A stretch of 64,000 nt of DNA. It comes from Burkholderiales bacterium (GTDB lineage Bacteria > Pseudomonadota > Gammaproteobacteria > Burkholderiales > Casimicrobiaceae). The stretch is taken from positions 248,001 through 312,000 of the forward strand of contig JAEUPL010000006.1 in NCBI GenBank assembly GCA_016790165.1, in the 5' to 3' direction. Positions 36,194 through 45,480 of this stretch are shown here, piece by piece. Made by a program: the position numbers and the translations under genes. Within the stretch, counting starts at the first letter, position 1. Each line of letters opens with the position of its first letter. The notes under the pieces were generated by a model. The model saw only the letters and a list, made by a program, of their open reading frames with translations, had not been told where the DNA came from and did not search any database.

Positions 36194-37195
36194 CTAGGGA
36201 CGTAGCAGCACTTTCGCCGCCGCGCACCGCCCTTGGTCGAGATCGAGGAATGCCTGTTGCCCACCGGCAAGCGGGCGCTCTTCGACCCACGATAGATCGC
36301 CAAACGCACCCTGAGCCAGCGCCGAGACCGTCGCGCGCAGGTCGGCGGTGGTGTAGGTGTAGGTGCCGAGCAGCGTGATCTCCGCGAGTGTGAGTTTGCG
36401 CATGTCCACCTCGCTCGCCCAGTCCTGCAGCCCGACATGCATGATCACGCCGCCGGGTTTGATCGCAATGAACGCCTGGTTACGCGTCGCCTTGGCGCCC
36501 ACGGCATCGATGACGACATCGAAGCTCGACTCTGCCTGGGGCGCTGCGCCTGGATCAATCGCGTCGCAGTGTGCGTGTCGCGCTACGGCGTCTCGACGTA
36601 GTGGGTTCAGTTCGGCAACCACCGTGTGCCGCACACCCAGATGGCGCAGCAACAACGCGCCCAGCATGCCGATGGCACCGCCACCGATGACCAGCACGCG
36701 GCACTCGTGAATGGGTCTCGCGAGCGCGCGGATGATGAGATTCACTGCGTGCCAGGCAGTGGCAGCCGGTTCCGTCAGCGCGGCCGCACGCGCCGGCAAG
36801 TCCTGCGGCATCGCGATGAGCGACGCAGCGGGAATGCTCATGTACTCCGCATACGCGCCCGGTCGCGTCATGCCGACCATCGTCCGATTGGCGCAGAGGT
36901 TGTTGCGGCCCTGGACGCAGTACTCGCAAACACCGCAGGTGATGAGCGGATTCCCAGTGAAGCGTGTGCCAAGGTCAAATCCTGGCGCCGCCGATTCAAC
37001 GATGCGGCCGACAAACTCGTGCCCGAGCACGAGACCCGGCTTGCGCCGCGGGTCATGGCCGTGCCAGGCGTGCATGTCGGAGCCGCAGATTCCCACGGCC
37101 TCGATCTGCAGTACCACTTCCCCCGTTGCTGCGGCGGGCATTGGTTGTTCCTGCAGAACCACTTCGTTGGGCTGGGTGTAGACGAGTGCTTTCAT
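36194..37195 (-). CDS. Zinc-dependent alcohol dehydrogenase (MDR family)
   Basis: A 333-residue medium-chain dehydrogenase. The catalytic zinc ligands lie in GICGSDMHAWHGH (Cys about 37) and GHEFVG (His-Glu). The structural zinc has four cysteines in ITCGVCEYCVQGRNNLC (about 87-103). The NAD-binding turn is VLVIGGGAIGMLGALLLRHLG. It belongs with sorbitol/threonine-type polyol dehydrogenases. It is the last gene of the LacI-associated catabolic operon and overlaps the aminotransferase stop by 4 nt. A role comparable to HpsP in dihydroxypropanesulfonate metabolism is possible, but unproven. Confidence 0.9.
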   Translation of the reverse strand: MKALVYTQPNEVVLQEQPMPAAATGEVVLQIEAVGICGSDMHAWHGHDPRRKPGLVLGHEFVGRIVESAAPGFDLGTRFTGNPLITCGVCEYCVQGRNNLCANRTMVGMTRPGAYAEYMSIPAASLIAMPQDLPARAAALTEPAATAWHAVNLIIRALARPIHECRVLVIGGGAIGMLGALLLRHLGVRHTVVAELNPLRRDAVARHAHCDAIDPGAAPQAESSFDVVIDAVGAKATRNQAFIAIKPGGVIMHVGLQDWASEVDMRKLTLAEITLLGTYTYTTADLRATVSALAQGAFGDLSWVEERPLAGGQQAFLDLDQGRCAAAKVLLRP

Positions 37196-38514
37196 GGGAT
37201 GGGGTGCTGGGTGTCTTCAATGGCGAGACGCAGCGCGTCCGCCATGCGCTGGATGTCTCCGAGTTCGCTCACAAAGGGCGGCGCGAGGACGAGTGTGTCG
37301 CCGGGCGCGCGGGTCAACACGCCACGATCAAAGGCGGCCGCCTGGGCACGCGCACCGCGCTGCCCCGGCTGTCCTGTATCTGGCGCCAGTTCGATGCCCG
37401 CAGCCAGGCCAAGATTGCGAATGCTCACTACGCCGGGTGCATCAGCCAGCGCATGCACAATGTTTTCGAAGCGTGGCGCCATCGCAGCGACACGTGCGAC
37501 CAACTGTTCATCGTGCAGGACATCGAGCATCGCAAGACCAGCCGCGCACGCCAGGGGGTGCCCTGAACAGGTGTAGCCATGCATGAACTCGGAGATGTGC
37601 TTCGGCCCCTGCATCAAGGCATCGTGAATTTCGCGCTTGACGATGACGCCGCACAGTGGTGCCGCGCCGTTGCTTACCGTTTTGGCGAACACGATCATGT
37701 CCGGCACCACGCCCAGCGCTTGCGCTGCGAACATCGCACCCAGCCGACCGAAGCCGGTGATCACTTCGTCGAAGACAAGTAACAGGCCATGACGGTCGCA
37801 AATTGCCCGTAGGCGTTGCAGGTAGCCGCGTGGCGGCACGAGCACACCGGTCGATCCGGCAAACGGCTCGATCACGACGGCTGCGATATTGGTGGCGTCG
37901 TGCAGGGTAACCAGCCGTTCCAGCTCGTCGGCCATCGCTTCCCCGCCCGAGTCGGGCTGGCCGCGCACGAAGGCCTGCGTCGAGGCATTCCAGGTGCTCG
38001 CCAGGTGGTCGGCGTGCAGCATCGCGCCACCGTACGCCCGGCGGTTGTTGATCATGCCGCCCACCGAGATGCCACCAAAGCCCACCCCGTGAAACCCGCG
38101 TTCACGCCCGATGAACACACGCTTCTGCCCCCGCCCCGTTGCGCAGGCGTACGCGAGGGCGATCTTGAGGGCGGTATCTACCGCTTCGCTGCCGCTGTTG
38201 ACAAAGAAAACCCGATCCAGCGCGGGTGGGGCCAGCGCAGCGATCCGCTCCGCCAATTCAAATGCACCCGCATGCCCGACCTGAAAGCTGGATGCGAAGT
38301 CGAGCGTATCAAGTTGCCGCTTCATGGCCTCGACGATGCGCGGGTGGCGGTGACCGGCCCCTATGCACCATAGGCCCGATGTGCCATCCAGCACTTCGCG
38401 CCCGTCCGGTGTGCGGTAGGCAATGCCTTGGGCGCTGGCGACAAGGCGCGGCTCCGCCTTGAACTGCCGGTTTGGCGTGAAAGGCATCCAGAAAGCGTCG
38501 AGCAAGGTGGTCAT
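37192..38514 (-). CDS. Class III (omega) aminotransferase
   Basis: A 440-residue PLP enzyme starting at [18 protein letters not shown], which overlaps the SDR stop by 4 nt. Motifs include [59 protein letters not shown] (PLP-contacting Asp) and the Schiff-base lysine in [16 protein letters not shown]. This group includes beta-alanine-, omega-amino acid- and taurine-pyruvate aminotransferases. In this operon it probably transfers nitrogen to or from an intermediate of the imported compound. Confidence 0.9.
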
Positions 38515-39290
38515 TTTGCGGTGTAGCCACCATCGATCATCAGCGTCTGCCCCGTGATGTAGCGGCTGGCGTCGCTGCACAGGAACACCGTGGCGCCATG
38601 CAAATCGTCGAGCTTGCCATTGCGTCCGAGACAGGTGGCTTCGGCGTGGCGGGCGGCGAGCTCGGCATCATTGAACACTGGCGCGGTCAATGCCGTGGGA
38701 AAGAAACCCGGGCCAATCGCGTTGCAGGTAATTCCGTGCTTTCCCCATTCCTGGGCAATGGCGCGGGTCAGCTGCACGATTCCGCCCTTGCCGGCACCAT
38801 AGGGGGCGCTGTTGGCGAAGGCACGGTAGCTTTGCAATGAAGCGATGTTCAGCACACGTCCCCAGCCGCGCGCGGCCATGCCGGGCGCTAGCGCCTGGGT
38901 CAGAAAAAACGGGGCCGATAGATGCAGCGCAATTTGCGTCTGCCAGCTTTCTGGCGTCACGTTGATGAAGGGCTCACGCAGGTTAGTGCCCGCGGCGTTG
39001 ACCAGAATGTCGATACCGCCAAAGCGCTGCTCGGCCATTCGCGCCGTCTCACGGAGGGCGAGGGTATCGGTGAGATCGGCCACCACATGGTCAGCATCAA
39101 TGCCTTCGCCCCGAAAGCGCTGAGCGAGTTGGTTGAGCTCATCCGTCCGCCGCGCCGCAAGAATCACGGCGGCGCCAGCACGGCCTAGCGCTTCGGCCAT
39201 CGCCGCGCCGATGCCGGAGCTGCCACCCGTCACCAGCGCCCGGCGACCGCGCAGCGAAAACAGGCCCCGCATGGCGTCGTCGTCGCGCAT
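38511..39290 (-). CDS. SDR-family dehydrogenase (gluconate 5-dehydrogenase-like)
   Basis: A 259-residue classical short-chain dehydrogenase. It has [16 protein letters not shown] (about residues 21-36), NAAGTN, Ser in [16 protein letters not shown] as the YxxxK pair (about 158-162), and the C-terminal [15 protein letters not shown]. The start overlaps the HisD-like stop (TGATG). The closest functional group is polyol and sugar-acid dehydrogenases. In the operon it would oxidise or reduce a hydroxyl of the imported compound, possibly the role of HpsO. Confidence 0.9.
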
Positions 39291-44297: not shown

Positions 44298-44312
44298 TGT
44301 AAACGTTTTCAG
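44298..44312. promoter_or_regulatory. LacI-family operator candidate in the divergent promoter region
   Basis: TGTAAACGTTTTCAG is a near-palindrome about the central CG, the form typical of LacI-family operators. It lies between the permease start at 44258 and the regulator. A near-identical site occurs at 40614. Confidence 0.7.
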
Positions 44313-44418
44313 TTTCCACCGAAAATCGCCGCGCGTCAAGCCTTTGCGCTCGGCAATGCGCCCAGGCTTTCCCTATGATTGCGCAGTCCGCTGGGCGTGT
44401 GCAGTGCAAACAGGTATA

Positions 44419-45480
44419 GTGCCGGGCACTTTGAGCGCGCCGACTCGCCCCCTTCCGAACATTGTTGACGTCGCCCGACGCGCCCGCGTCTCGACGGCGA
44501 CGGTCTCGCGCGTCGTCAATGCCCCCGAGGCCGTGCGACCGGCGTTGCGTGAACGCGTCGAAGCGGTCATCGCGCAACTTGGTTACGTCCCGCATGCCGG
44601 TGCGCGAACGCTCAAGTCGCGCCGCACCGGCACAATCGGGGCGATCTTCCCGACGATCGACAACGCCATCTTCGCGCAGGCGATCAATGTCTTGCAGCGT
44701 CACCTGGTGGATGCGGGGTATCAACTGCTGATCGCCACTTGCGACTACGACCCGGCAGTGGAGGAAAGTCAGGCCCTGAACTTGCTGACGCGCGGCGCCG
44801 ATGCGCTGGTGCTGTGCGGATGCGGGCAGCGCGCGACGATGCTGTCGCGGCTCGCCACGCGCGGCATCCCGGTCGTACATGTGATGAGTTGGCCGTTGCC
44901 CGGCGGGATGGCCGGCGTTGGTTTCGACAATGCCCGCGCCATTGGGCAGGCAGTGCGTTACCTCGCCGATCTCGGGCATCGCCGCATTGCCATGCTGGCC
45001 GGGGTGACCCGCGACAACGACCGCGCGTCGGCGCGTGTGCGTGGCTTTCGCGACGCCATGGCGAGTGCAGGTTTGCCGCTGCCGTCTCAGCGGCTGATTG
45101 AGCGCCCCTATGGGCTGCAGCAAGCCAGGGACGGTTTGCGCGAGCTGCTGGCGGCGCCGCAGCCACCCACTGCGCTGATTTGCGGCAACGACGTGCTGGC
45201 GTTTGGCGCGTTGTTTGAAGCGCAGCATCTTGGCGTGCAGGTTCCAGTCGATCTGTCGATCGTTGGTTTCGATGATCTCGAGCTTGCGTCGCACGTCAAA
45301 CCGGCGCTCACCACCGTGCACGTGCCGGCGGAGACGATGTGGCGTCGCGCCGCGCAACTGGCGGTCGCCCTGCTGAGTGGCGAGGCCACCGTGCGAGCGC
45401 ACGAGGTCGAGGTGTCGCTGATCGTGCGAGGATCGAGCGCACCGCCTGCACGCAAGCGCCGCCAGGGAAACGCTGAATAA
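44419..45480 (+). CDS. LacI-family transcriptional regulator
   Basis: About 353 residues with a GTG start at 44419; GTG 44404 and TTG 44431 are alternatives, and the longer open frame upstream overlaps the permease promoter. The DNA-binding domain is NIVDVARRARVSTATVSRVVN (split here: NIVDVARRARVSTATV then SRVVN), with hinge helix PHAGARTLKSRR. A periplasmic-binding-type effector domain follows. The protein probably represses the divergent importer and the HisD-like operon until the substrate or a metabolite binds. Its last residues, QGNAE and the stop codon, are encoded by the left end of a palindromic repeat. Confidence 0.93.
   Translation: MPGTLSAPTRPLPNIVDVARRARVSTATVSRVVNAPEAVRPALRERVEAVIAQLGYVPHAGARTLKSRRTGTIGAIFPTIDNAIFAQAINVLQRHLVDAGYQLLIATCDYDPAVEESQALNLLTRGADALVLCGCGQRATMLSRLATRGIPVVHVMSWPLPGGMAGVGFDNARAIGQAVRYLADLGHRRIAMLAGVTRDNDRASARVRGFRDAMASAGLPLPSQRLIERPYGLQQARDGLRELLAAPQPPTALICGNDVLAFGALFEAQHLGVQVPVDLSIVGFDDLELASHVKPALTTVHVPAETMWRRAAQLAVALLSGEATVRAHEVEVSLIVRGSSAPPARKRRQGNAE

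Follow-up and report, generated by a model that had tools for sequence, protein, structure and literature searches.

What does an aminotransferase do in an operon whose other enzymes are dehydrogenases of sulfonate catabolism? This question is raised by nine genes at 36194-45480 of a stretch of 64,000 nucleotides from a Burkholderiales bacterium of the family Casimicrobiaceae (contig JAEUPL010000006.1, positions 248,001 to 312,000, or C15:248001-312000 of the source genome assembly, which has 3.76 Mb in 41 contigs and is 92% complete). This whole stretch is called the window in the following. As judged from the sequence, the genes almost certainly form a LacI-regulated operon for the import and oxidation of 2,3-dihydroxypropane-1-sulfonate (DHPS), a C3 sulfonate, and belong as such to a known kind. 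The class III omega-aminotransferase encoded among them (hps-AT) very probably represents an integral step of the pathway, and cysteinolate (2-amino-3-hydroxypropane-1-sulfonate) has about an even chance of being its substrate, beside DHPS.

Order and strands of the nine genes are as first described. The minus strand carries the genes of an ATP-binding cassette (ABC) importer (permease A, permease B, ATPase and binding protein) and then those of the four enzymes; the LacI gene is opposed on the plus strand. The open reading frames (ORFs) and the NCBIfam models, which support each gene, bear out the initial annotation of this DNA, in which importer and enzymes were co-directional and faced a LacI gene. 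NCBIfam covered all operon genes, Pfam the aminotransferase, LacI and the binding protein; for the HisD-like gene the model PF00815 was used as well.

The HisD-like gene (39290-40603, minus strand) encodes HpsN, a DHPS 3-dehydrogenase with HisD fold. With HpsN of Cupriavidus pinatubonensis the protein shares 81% identity; the PDB entries matching it best (8v35 and relatives, 8wwe) are labelled sulfopropanediol 3-dehydrogenase or (R)-DHPS dehydrogenase. His126, taking part in sulfonate recognition, is reported to tell HpsN and histidinol dehydrogenase apart, and Glu318, His319 and Asp352 are HpsN residues, too (PMC11382572; this and the other papers named here are cited from excerpts). In the window protein H127 corresponds to the diagnostic His126, and E319, H320 and D353 are retained. 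The diagnostic His was found in 80/80 HpsN rows (79 related loci and the window). The true HisD of this genome, encoded on contig C14 and its only other PF00815 match, keeps the other three residues but carries a Tyr at the position of His126. Compared with both HpsN and the true HisD, as had been proposed, the window protein thus sides with HpsN. The TIGR00069 hisD domain model scores window HpsN 417 with a cut-off of 243.8, indicating that this general model fails to separate HpsN from HisD.

HpsO, the short-chain dehydrogenase/reductase (SDR) acting as DHPS dehydrogenase (38511-39290, minus strand), is 66% identical to C. pinatubonensis HpsO and matches the PDB entries 9pvq (E 9e-105) and 8wwf, labelled '(R)-DHPS dehydrogenase HpsO' (E 2e-83). 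HpsP, a zinc-dependent DHPS dehydrogenase of the medium-chain dehydrogenase/reductase (MDR) family (36194-37195, minus strand), shows 61% identity to its C. pinatubonensis counterpart; its best PDB match is 8wwd (E 6e-88), presumably HpsP of Dinoroseobacter shibae. The catalytic residues given for HpsO and HpsP in PMC11131964 are conserved in the PDB alignments when inspected by eye, among them, in window HpsP, the catalytic His-Glu and Glu known from DsHpsP. The resemblance of the HisD/SDR/MDR trio to HpsN, HpsO and HpsP, pointed out in the initial annotation, therefore holds at ortholog level. That annotation had considered a sulfonate or a polyol system. The sulfonate part stands on the HpsN orthology, the polyol part does not agree with the diagnostic His, and a non-sulfonate substrate is unsupported. 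A polyol or histidinol-type role was rejected on account of HpsN orthology and the diagnostic His.

No C-S-cleaving enzyme is encoded within the window, as had been stated before; all genome-wide matches fall outside it. SuyB-like matches were detected on C12 and C11, Xsc-family matches on C18, C33, C6 and C15:167022, and one weak CuyA-like match on C25. The SuyB on contig C12 (81% identity) has SuyA directly upstream and an SDR directly downstream. Divergent from these suyAB genes lie the genes of a 2-hydroxyacid dehydrogenase and an Ldh_2 protein, the two families that also comprise SlcC and ComC. The best NCBIfam matches of the two are below the respective cut-offs (L-sulfolactate dehydrogenase for the Ldh_2 protein, 210.7 vs 500; phosphoglycerate dehydrogenase for the other). 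Owing to SuyAB on C12 the terminal step, which had been feared to be missing, is present in the organism, and the predicted route from DHPS via sulfolactate to pyruvate and sulfite is complete on paper. A missing desulfonation was thereby excluded. The genome search that had been suggested was thus positive for suyAB (C12) and xsc (C18). It gave no good match for cuyA in the own genome (best 32% identity, E 2e-4), the query being a gene annotated as D-cysteine desulfhydrase in locus L005 and taken as CuyA by its context.

The aminotransferase gene (37192-38514, minus strand) is listed as an ORF beginning with GTG at 38580; the ATG at 38514 was taken as start. Its product matches Pfam Aminotran_3 and, with 623.6 bits against a cut-off of 500, NCBIfam AptA. 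With the chosen starts, hpsN and hpsO overlap by 1 nucleotide (nt), hpsO and the aminotransferase gene by 4 nt, and the latter and hpsP again by 4 nt. From these overlaps the four genes are probably expressed as one transcript with coupled translation.

Related loci were taken from the best 80 matches to window HpsN among genome contigs and are hence kin, not a random sample. L080, the same plasmid as L003 (Cupriavidus), was dropped, and 79 loci were counted, 71 of them classifiable; in the other 8, hpsO or hpsP is absent from the available piece (in L060 from a full-length piece). A class III aminotransferase was found between hpsO and hpsP in 17/71 classifiable loci, in the order N-O-AT-P in all 17. 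Loci with this aminotransferase or the second one described below come from records under the names Rubrivivax, Piscinibacter, Limnohabitans, Methylibium, Leptothrix and further Burkholderiales; among them are the cultured Piscinibacter caeni MQ-18 (L015) and, with the second enzyme, Limnohabitans planktonicus (L032). The 17 class III copies and that of the window (18 hps-ATs) form a single clade (support 100/100), to the exclusion of 29 ordinary relatives and of 3 paralogs from the own genome. At the position of Y152 in 3a8u, all 18 carry Phe and all 29 ordinary relatives Tyr; Tyr152 of 3a8u presumably has an active-site role. HpsN occurs in 7 of the 17 genomes of the own genus, own genome included in both numbers, at E 1e-130 or better. 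The best loci of the six HpsN-bearing congeners comprise one with ABC importer and aminotransferase (L147, taken as the same contig as L020), four with a tripartite ATP-independent periplasmic (TRAP) transporter and no aminotransferase, and one cut off at hpsN. Hps gene content is thus variable even within a genus.

These data bear on whether hps-AT might be an ordinary beta-alanine or omega-amino-acid aminotransferase that came to lie in the operon by chance and has no role in sulfonate metabolism. The AptA match above cut-off would fit such an enzyme, as would the PDB relatives, which are beta-alanine/omega-amino acid:pyruvate aminotransferases; in some loci hpsU or suyAB, too, separates hpsO from hpsP. 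This is hard to reconcile, however, with genes overlapping by 4 nt at either end, with a position shared by 17 loci and with the single clade, and the genome already possesses two AptA-like paralogs (54% and 50%). Among 300 sampled genomes of the order, a sample omitting some known carriers such as the congener of L147, no other match exceeded 64% identity (best non-self match 64%, a fragment; best full-length match 60%), and on plasmids none reached 60% among the 236 records matched. As a second aminotransferase family moreover replaces hps-AT in other loci, we consider a chance neighbour very unlikely.

This second family is a SerC-like class V aminotransferase encoded after hpsO in 8/71 loci. 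In five of them hpsP follows directly; in L024 and L030 suyAB intervenes before hpsP, and in L046 the piece ends first. No locus among the 71 has both the class III and the SerC-like enzyme. On an HpsN tree (72 rows), 8 changes are needed for the class III label and 5 for the SerC-like one, and the class III loci L020, L034 and L041 share a group with SerC-like loci. The HRSVGG motif of SerC is replaced by TPFGVGKY in 7/7 readable SerC-like copies, and the Arg of the RAS motif is kept; we assume that this Arg and the HRSVGG residues serve phosphoserine binding in SerC. The copy of L044 is above the cut-off of PRK05355 and below that of serC_1. Two unrelated enzymes at one place, alike in nothing but the type of reaction and never together, argue that the transamination of a common substrate was selected. 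Class III and SerC-like class V aminotransferases thus appear to interchange at one place of the hps operon, which would be new relative to known hps operons. The suggestion that the aminotransferase might make the locus a new variant gains support from its recurrence in part of the related hps operons and from the second family elsewhere. On plasmids (3 records matched) the SerC-like enzyme has one relative at 60%, whose surroundings are different, with FolD, PurU and a flavoprotein, and do not clarify the substrate.

Which substrate could be common to both families? We infer that cysteinolate, being the C2 amino analogue of DHPS and a beta-amino sulfonate, would suit both of them. In the proposed mechanism hps-AT would bring an amino-C3-sulfonate into the DHPS pathway. 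Cysteinolate and pyruvate would be converted to alanine and 3-hydroxy-2-oxopropane-1-sulfonate, this ketone would be reduced by HpsO/HpsP to R-DHPS, R-DHPS would be oxidised by HpsN to R-sulfolactate, and SuyAB would cleave the latter to pyruvate and sulfite. HpsO and HpsP are described as DHPS-2-dehydrogenases (PMC11382572), so that the C2 ketone, the deamination product of cysteinolate, is expected as an intermediate. Both cysteinolic acid and the C2 ketone have been detected in DHPS-producing algae (PMC11131964). The complete proposal, i.e. a route of cysteinolate breakdown that joins the DHPS pathway at the C2-keto intermediate and for which two unrelated aminotransferases were separately recruited to one hps position, is tentative, its chances lying somewhat below even.

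Omega-aminotransferases commonly take terminal amines, and hps-AT might instead act on the terminal amine of 3-amino-2-hydroxypropanesulfonate, yielding sulfolactaldehyde, which HpsN would convert to sulfolactate. The SerC-like enzyme at the same place speaks against this, since the SerC family acts on an amine beside a carboxylate and not on a terminal one. HpsN is reported to accept sulfolactaldehyde (PMC11382572), and the terminal amine agrees with the C3 chemistry ascribed to HpsO and HpsP (PMC11131964), under which it would be the better guess. The name '3-amino-2-hydroxypropanesulfonate' was absent from the papers matched by the one open-licence search made with it. Altogether we regard this substrate as unlikely.

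Alternatively, hps-AT could interconvert cysteate and sulfopyruvate, which would link it to SlcC/ComC or CuyA. The SerC family acts on 3-phosphoserine, to which cysteate is analogous, and the SlcC/ComC-like genes beside the own suyAB could serve to reduce sulfopyruvate to R-sulfolactate. It counts for this possibility, too, that the gene for the sulfopyruvate aminotransferase of Ruegeria pomeroyi is stated to be unknown (PMC11382572). On the other hand, hps-AT sits among the DHPS dehydrogenases and not among slcC, comC and suyAB, the own suyA has no LacI operator of the operon's type upstream, and the own genome offers the above CuyA-like match of 32% identity only.

CuyA and Xsc were also followed in searches of 50 genomes: all 25 aminotransferase carriers, and 25 picked by hand, not at random, from the 46 lacking one. 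SuyB with at least 75% identity is present in 48/50 genomes, in some as fragments (in G004 58 residues only), and absent from G003 and G005, indicating that the SuyAB end is general. CuyA-like matches of at least 55% occur in 5/25 genomes with aminotransferase (2 of the 5 being fragments) and in 6/25 without, and Xsc above cut-off in 7/25 and 16/25, respectively (split fragments would add 2 and 1). Xsc and CuyA-like genes therefore do not track with the aminotransferase, which argues against roles in taurine and cysteate metabolism. The cysteate reading is accordingly a distinctly unlikely one. For taurine, hps-AT would be a taurine:pyruvate aminotransferase feeding Xsc, and the operon would serve taurine and DHPS; the TauA/SsuA-type importer and the Xsc above cut-off in the genome are compatible with this. 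The distribution of Xsc, however, points in the wrong direction, and the own Xsc above cut-off, on C18, lies in the same gene run as a SauS-type sulfoacetaldehyde dehydrogenase (733.9 vs cut-off 600) and hence probably serves sulfoacetate. We therefore consider taurine very unlikely. The C18 cluster (Xsc-TctC-SauS) is separate from the suyAB cluster on C12.

Several points weigh against cysteinolate as substrate and against hps-AT as a pathway step. Omega-aminotransferases are often promiscuous, and NCBIfam would name hps-AT AptA. Neither aminotransferase type was found in 46/71 classifiable loci, showing that an aminotransferase is dispensable for DHPS use. The gap between hpsO and hpsP hosts other genes, namely a major facilitator superfamily (MFS) transporter in 8 classifiable HpsU-type loci and suyAB in the SerC-like loci L024 and L030, so that position alone proves little. 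All hps-AT copies were found via hpsN, and their linkage to hps is thus partly by design. Finally, published work is at odds over the action of HpsO and HpsP on DHPS, which is placed at C2 (PMC11382572) or at C3, with sulfolactaldehyde as product (PMC11131964). If C3 oxidation is right, the C2 ketone is no intermediate of HpsO/HpsP, and cysteinolate would not enter at this point.

Regulation of the operon was analysed by way of its LacI-family regulator, which is HpsR-like (Pfam LacI and Peripla_BP_3) and shows 42% identity to its LacI counterpart in the hps cluster of C. pinatubonensis. The ORF extends over 44113-45480 (plus strand); its helix-turn-helix begins at about residue 116, and the real start is probably at about 44356. 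The LacI-type palindrome TGNAANCGNTTNCA occurs with 0 mismatches at two places, neither with an assigned strand: the main predicted operator (TGTAAACGTTTTCA, 44298-44311) lies in the gap between permease A and lacI, and the second (TGTAATCGTTTTCA, 40614-40627) directly upstream of hpsN. Taken by itself, the window has no more sites at up to 1 mismatch than chance would give (2, against a mean of 1.86). The 3.76-Mb assembly contains 6 exact sites, two of them these in operon gaps, and 1 of the reversed pattern. A site with at most 1 mismatch was found in the lacI gap of 57/59 loci scanned, compared to 0.58 expected from base shuffles, and in the gap between binding protein and hpsN of 16/46 loci compared to 0.18 expected, the window being included both times. 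The weight of the predicted operators comes from their rarity in the assembly and from these two counts. The LacI gene thus faces the operon with palindromic predicted operators in the gap, an HpsR-like arrangement. Upstream of suyA in related loci, 0/28 stretches have the site, some of these suyA genes sitting inside hps operons and needing none; before the own suyA the site is absent as well.

The importer genes, all on the minus strand, start with permease A, the first gene of the operon (43431-44258; TauC/SsuC-type NCBIfam models, below cut-offs). Permease B (ORF 42652-43707, probable start at about 43435; SaoP/TauC/SsuC-type models) and the ATPase (41800-42645, probable internal start at about 42597; SaoA, nitrate- and taurine-type models) likewise match below the cut-offs only. 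The SsuA/TauA-type periplasmic binding protein (40678-41724) scores 117.4 bits with NCBIfam SsuA_fam, below the cut-off of 163.5, and has taurine-binding and aliphatic-sulfonate-binding proteins as best PDB matches. A residue comparison covered 46 binding proteins, 23 from aminotransferase loci (window included) and 20 from loci without; 3 from unclassifiable loci were dropped. H93 is found in 23/23 and 9/20 of these related sequences, respectively, every position having been tried, and because of the kinship and the number of positions we draw no conclusion from residue differences.

Next to hpsP a gene for a UspA-like stress protein, named by eye, is located on the plus strand (35715-36158), preceded by a gene for an M81-family (MlrC-like) metallopeptidase at 34141-35628. 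On the other side of the operon, genes for a fumarate-reductase-like flavoprotein, fumarase-like alpha and beta subunits and a TctC binding protein occupy 45555-49765 of the minus strand; a homolog of the flavoprotein (>60% identity) was detected in 11/79 related hps loci. A choline-sulfatase-family gene together with a TctC binding protein gene is inserted in the hps operons of L009, L015, L022, L024, L030, L031 and L032 (609 vs cut-off 433 for the copy of L024). Six of the loci with it are classifiable, and all six have an aminotransferase. The choline-sulfatase-family gene was found in 6/25 aminotransferase loci and 0/46 without (Fisher p 0.0012, uncorrected for kinship), and none was seen in the window operon.

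Further HpsN-like genes were observed outside such operons. The plasmid loci L005 (3200-10251) and L004 (6238-14494) encode a TauABC-type importer, a DegT-family aminotransferase, an amino acid racemase and an HpsN homolog with the diagnostic His, and the L005 cluster additionally holds the CuyA-like gene. This cluster could be a second amino-sulfonate route with an HpsN-like oxidation of cysteinolate to cysteate. Among the 60 plasmid HpsN-like matches listed, of 188, 44 are annotated as histidinol dehydrogenase, and identities range from 47 to 61% apart from the Cupriavidus one with 81%; the diagnostic His was checked in five of the 60 records, and the distant ones may be other HisD-like enzymes. 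Second HpsN-like genes with 61-63% identity occur in genomes already possessing an hps operon (L023 at about 19754-21046, G248:C26 and G355:C141). The one of L023 has the diagnostic His and follows TauABC-type genes, an alpha/beta hydrolase gene and a LysR gene.

Cysteinolic acid is widespread in microalgae, with cell contents in the range of those of DHPS (PMC8703288). Genes for DHPS breakdown are known; for cysteinolate breakdown, hps-AT and the SerC-like gene are testable candidates with a predicted chemistry. In the excerpts consulted from the open-licence PMC literature, subscription journals and preprints being outside this scope, we found neither an aminotransferase inside hps operons nor genes for cysteinolate breakdown, a coverage too narrow to prove novelty. 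If true, the proposal would provide a genetically defined bacterial breakdown route for an abundant algal osmolyte, and the cysteinolate question bears on the C2 versus C3 dispute over HpsO and HpsP, too.

Compared to known systems, the operon shares the LacI regulator and orthologs of HpsN, HpsO and HpsP with the hpsR-N-O-U-P-suyAB cluster of C. pinatubonensis, and both genomes encode SuyAB. It differs from that cluster in its transporter (an ABC importer here, HpsU of the MFS there), in the location of suyAB on another contig together with slcC/comC-like genes, and in the gene between hpsO and hpsP, which encodes the aminotransferase here and the MFS transporter in C. pinatubonensis. With the cluster hpsR-KLM-NOPQ-slcD of R. 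pomeroyi (PMC4334477) it has in common the LacI regulator, the N-O-P order and a UspA gene adjoining hpsP (hpsQ in R. pomeroyi), the window gene, unlike hpsQ, being on the strand opposite to hpsP. The R. pomeroyi cluster has a TRAP transporter, and the excerpt of that paper lists no aminotransferase between hpsO and hpsP. AptA and the beta-alanine:pyruvate aminotransferases (PDB 3a8u, 4b98, 4uhm) belong to the same class III family as hps-AT, which is above the AptA cut-off, but hps-AT differs in its separate, fully supported clade, in the exchange of Tyr for Phe at Y152 and in the place of its known copies, all of which, having been found via hpsN, lie in hps operons. The SerC-like hps enzyme, in turn, shares the class V family with SerC and differs from it in the exchange of HRSVGG for TPFGVGKY.

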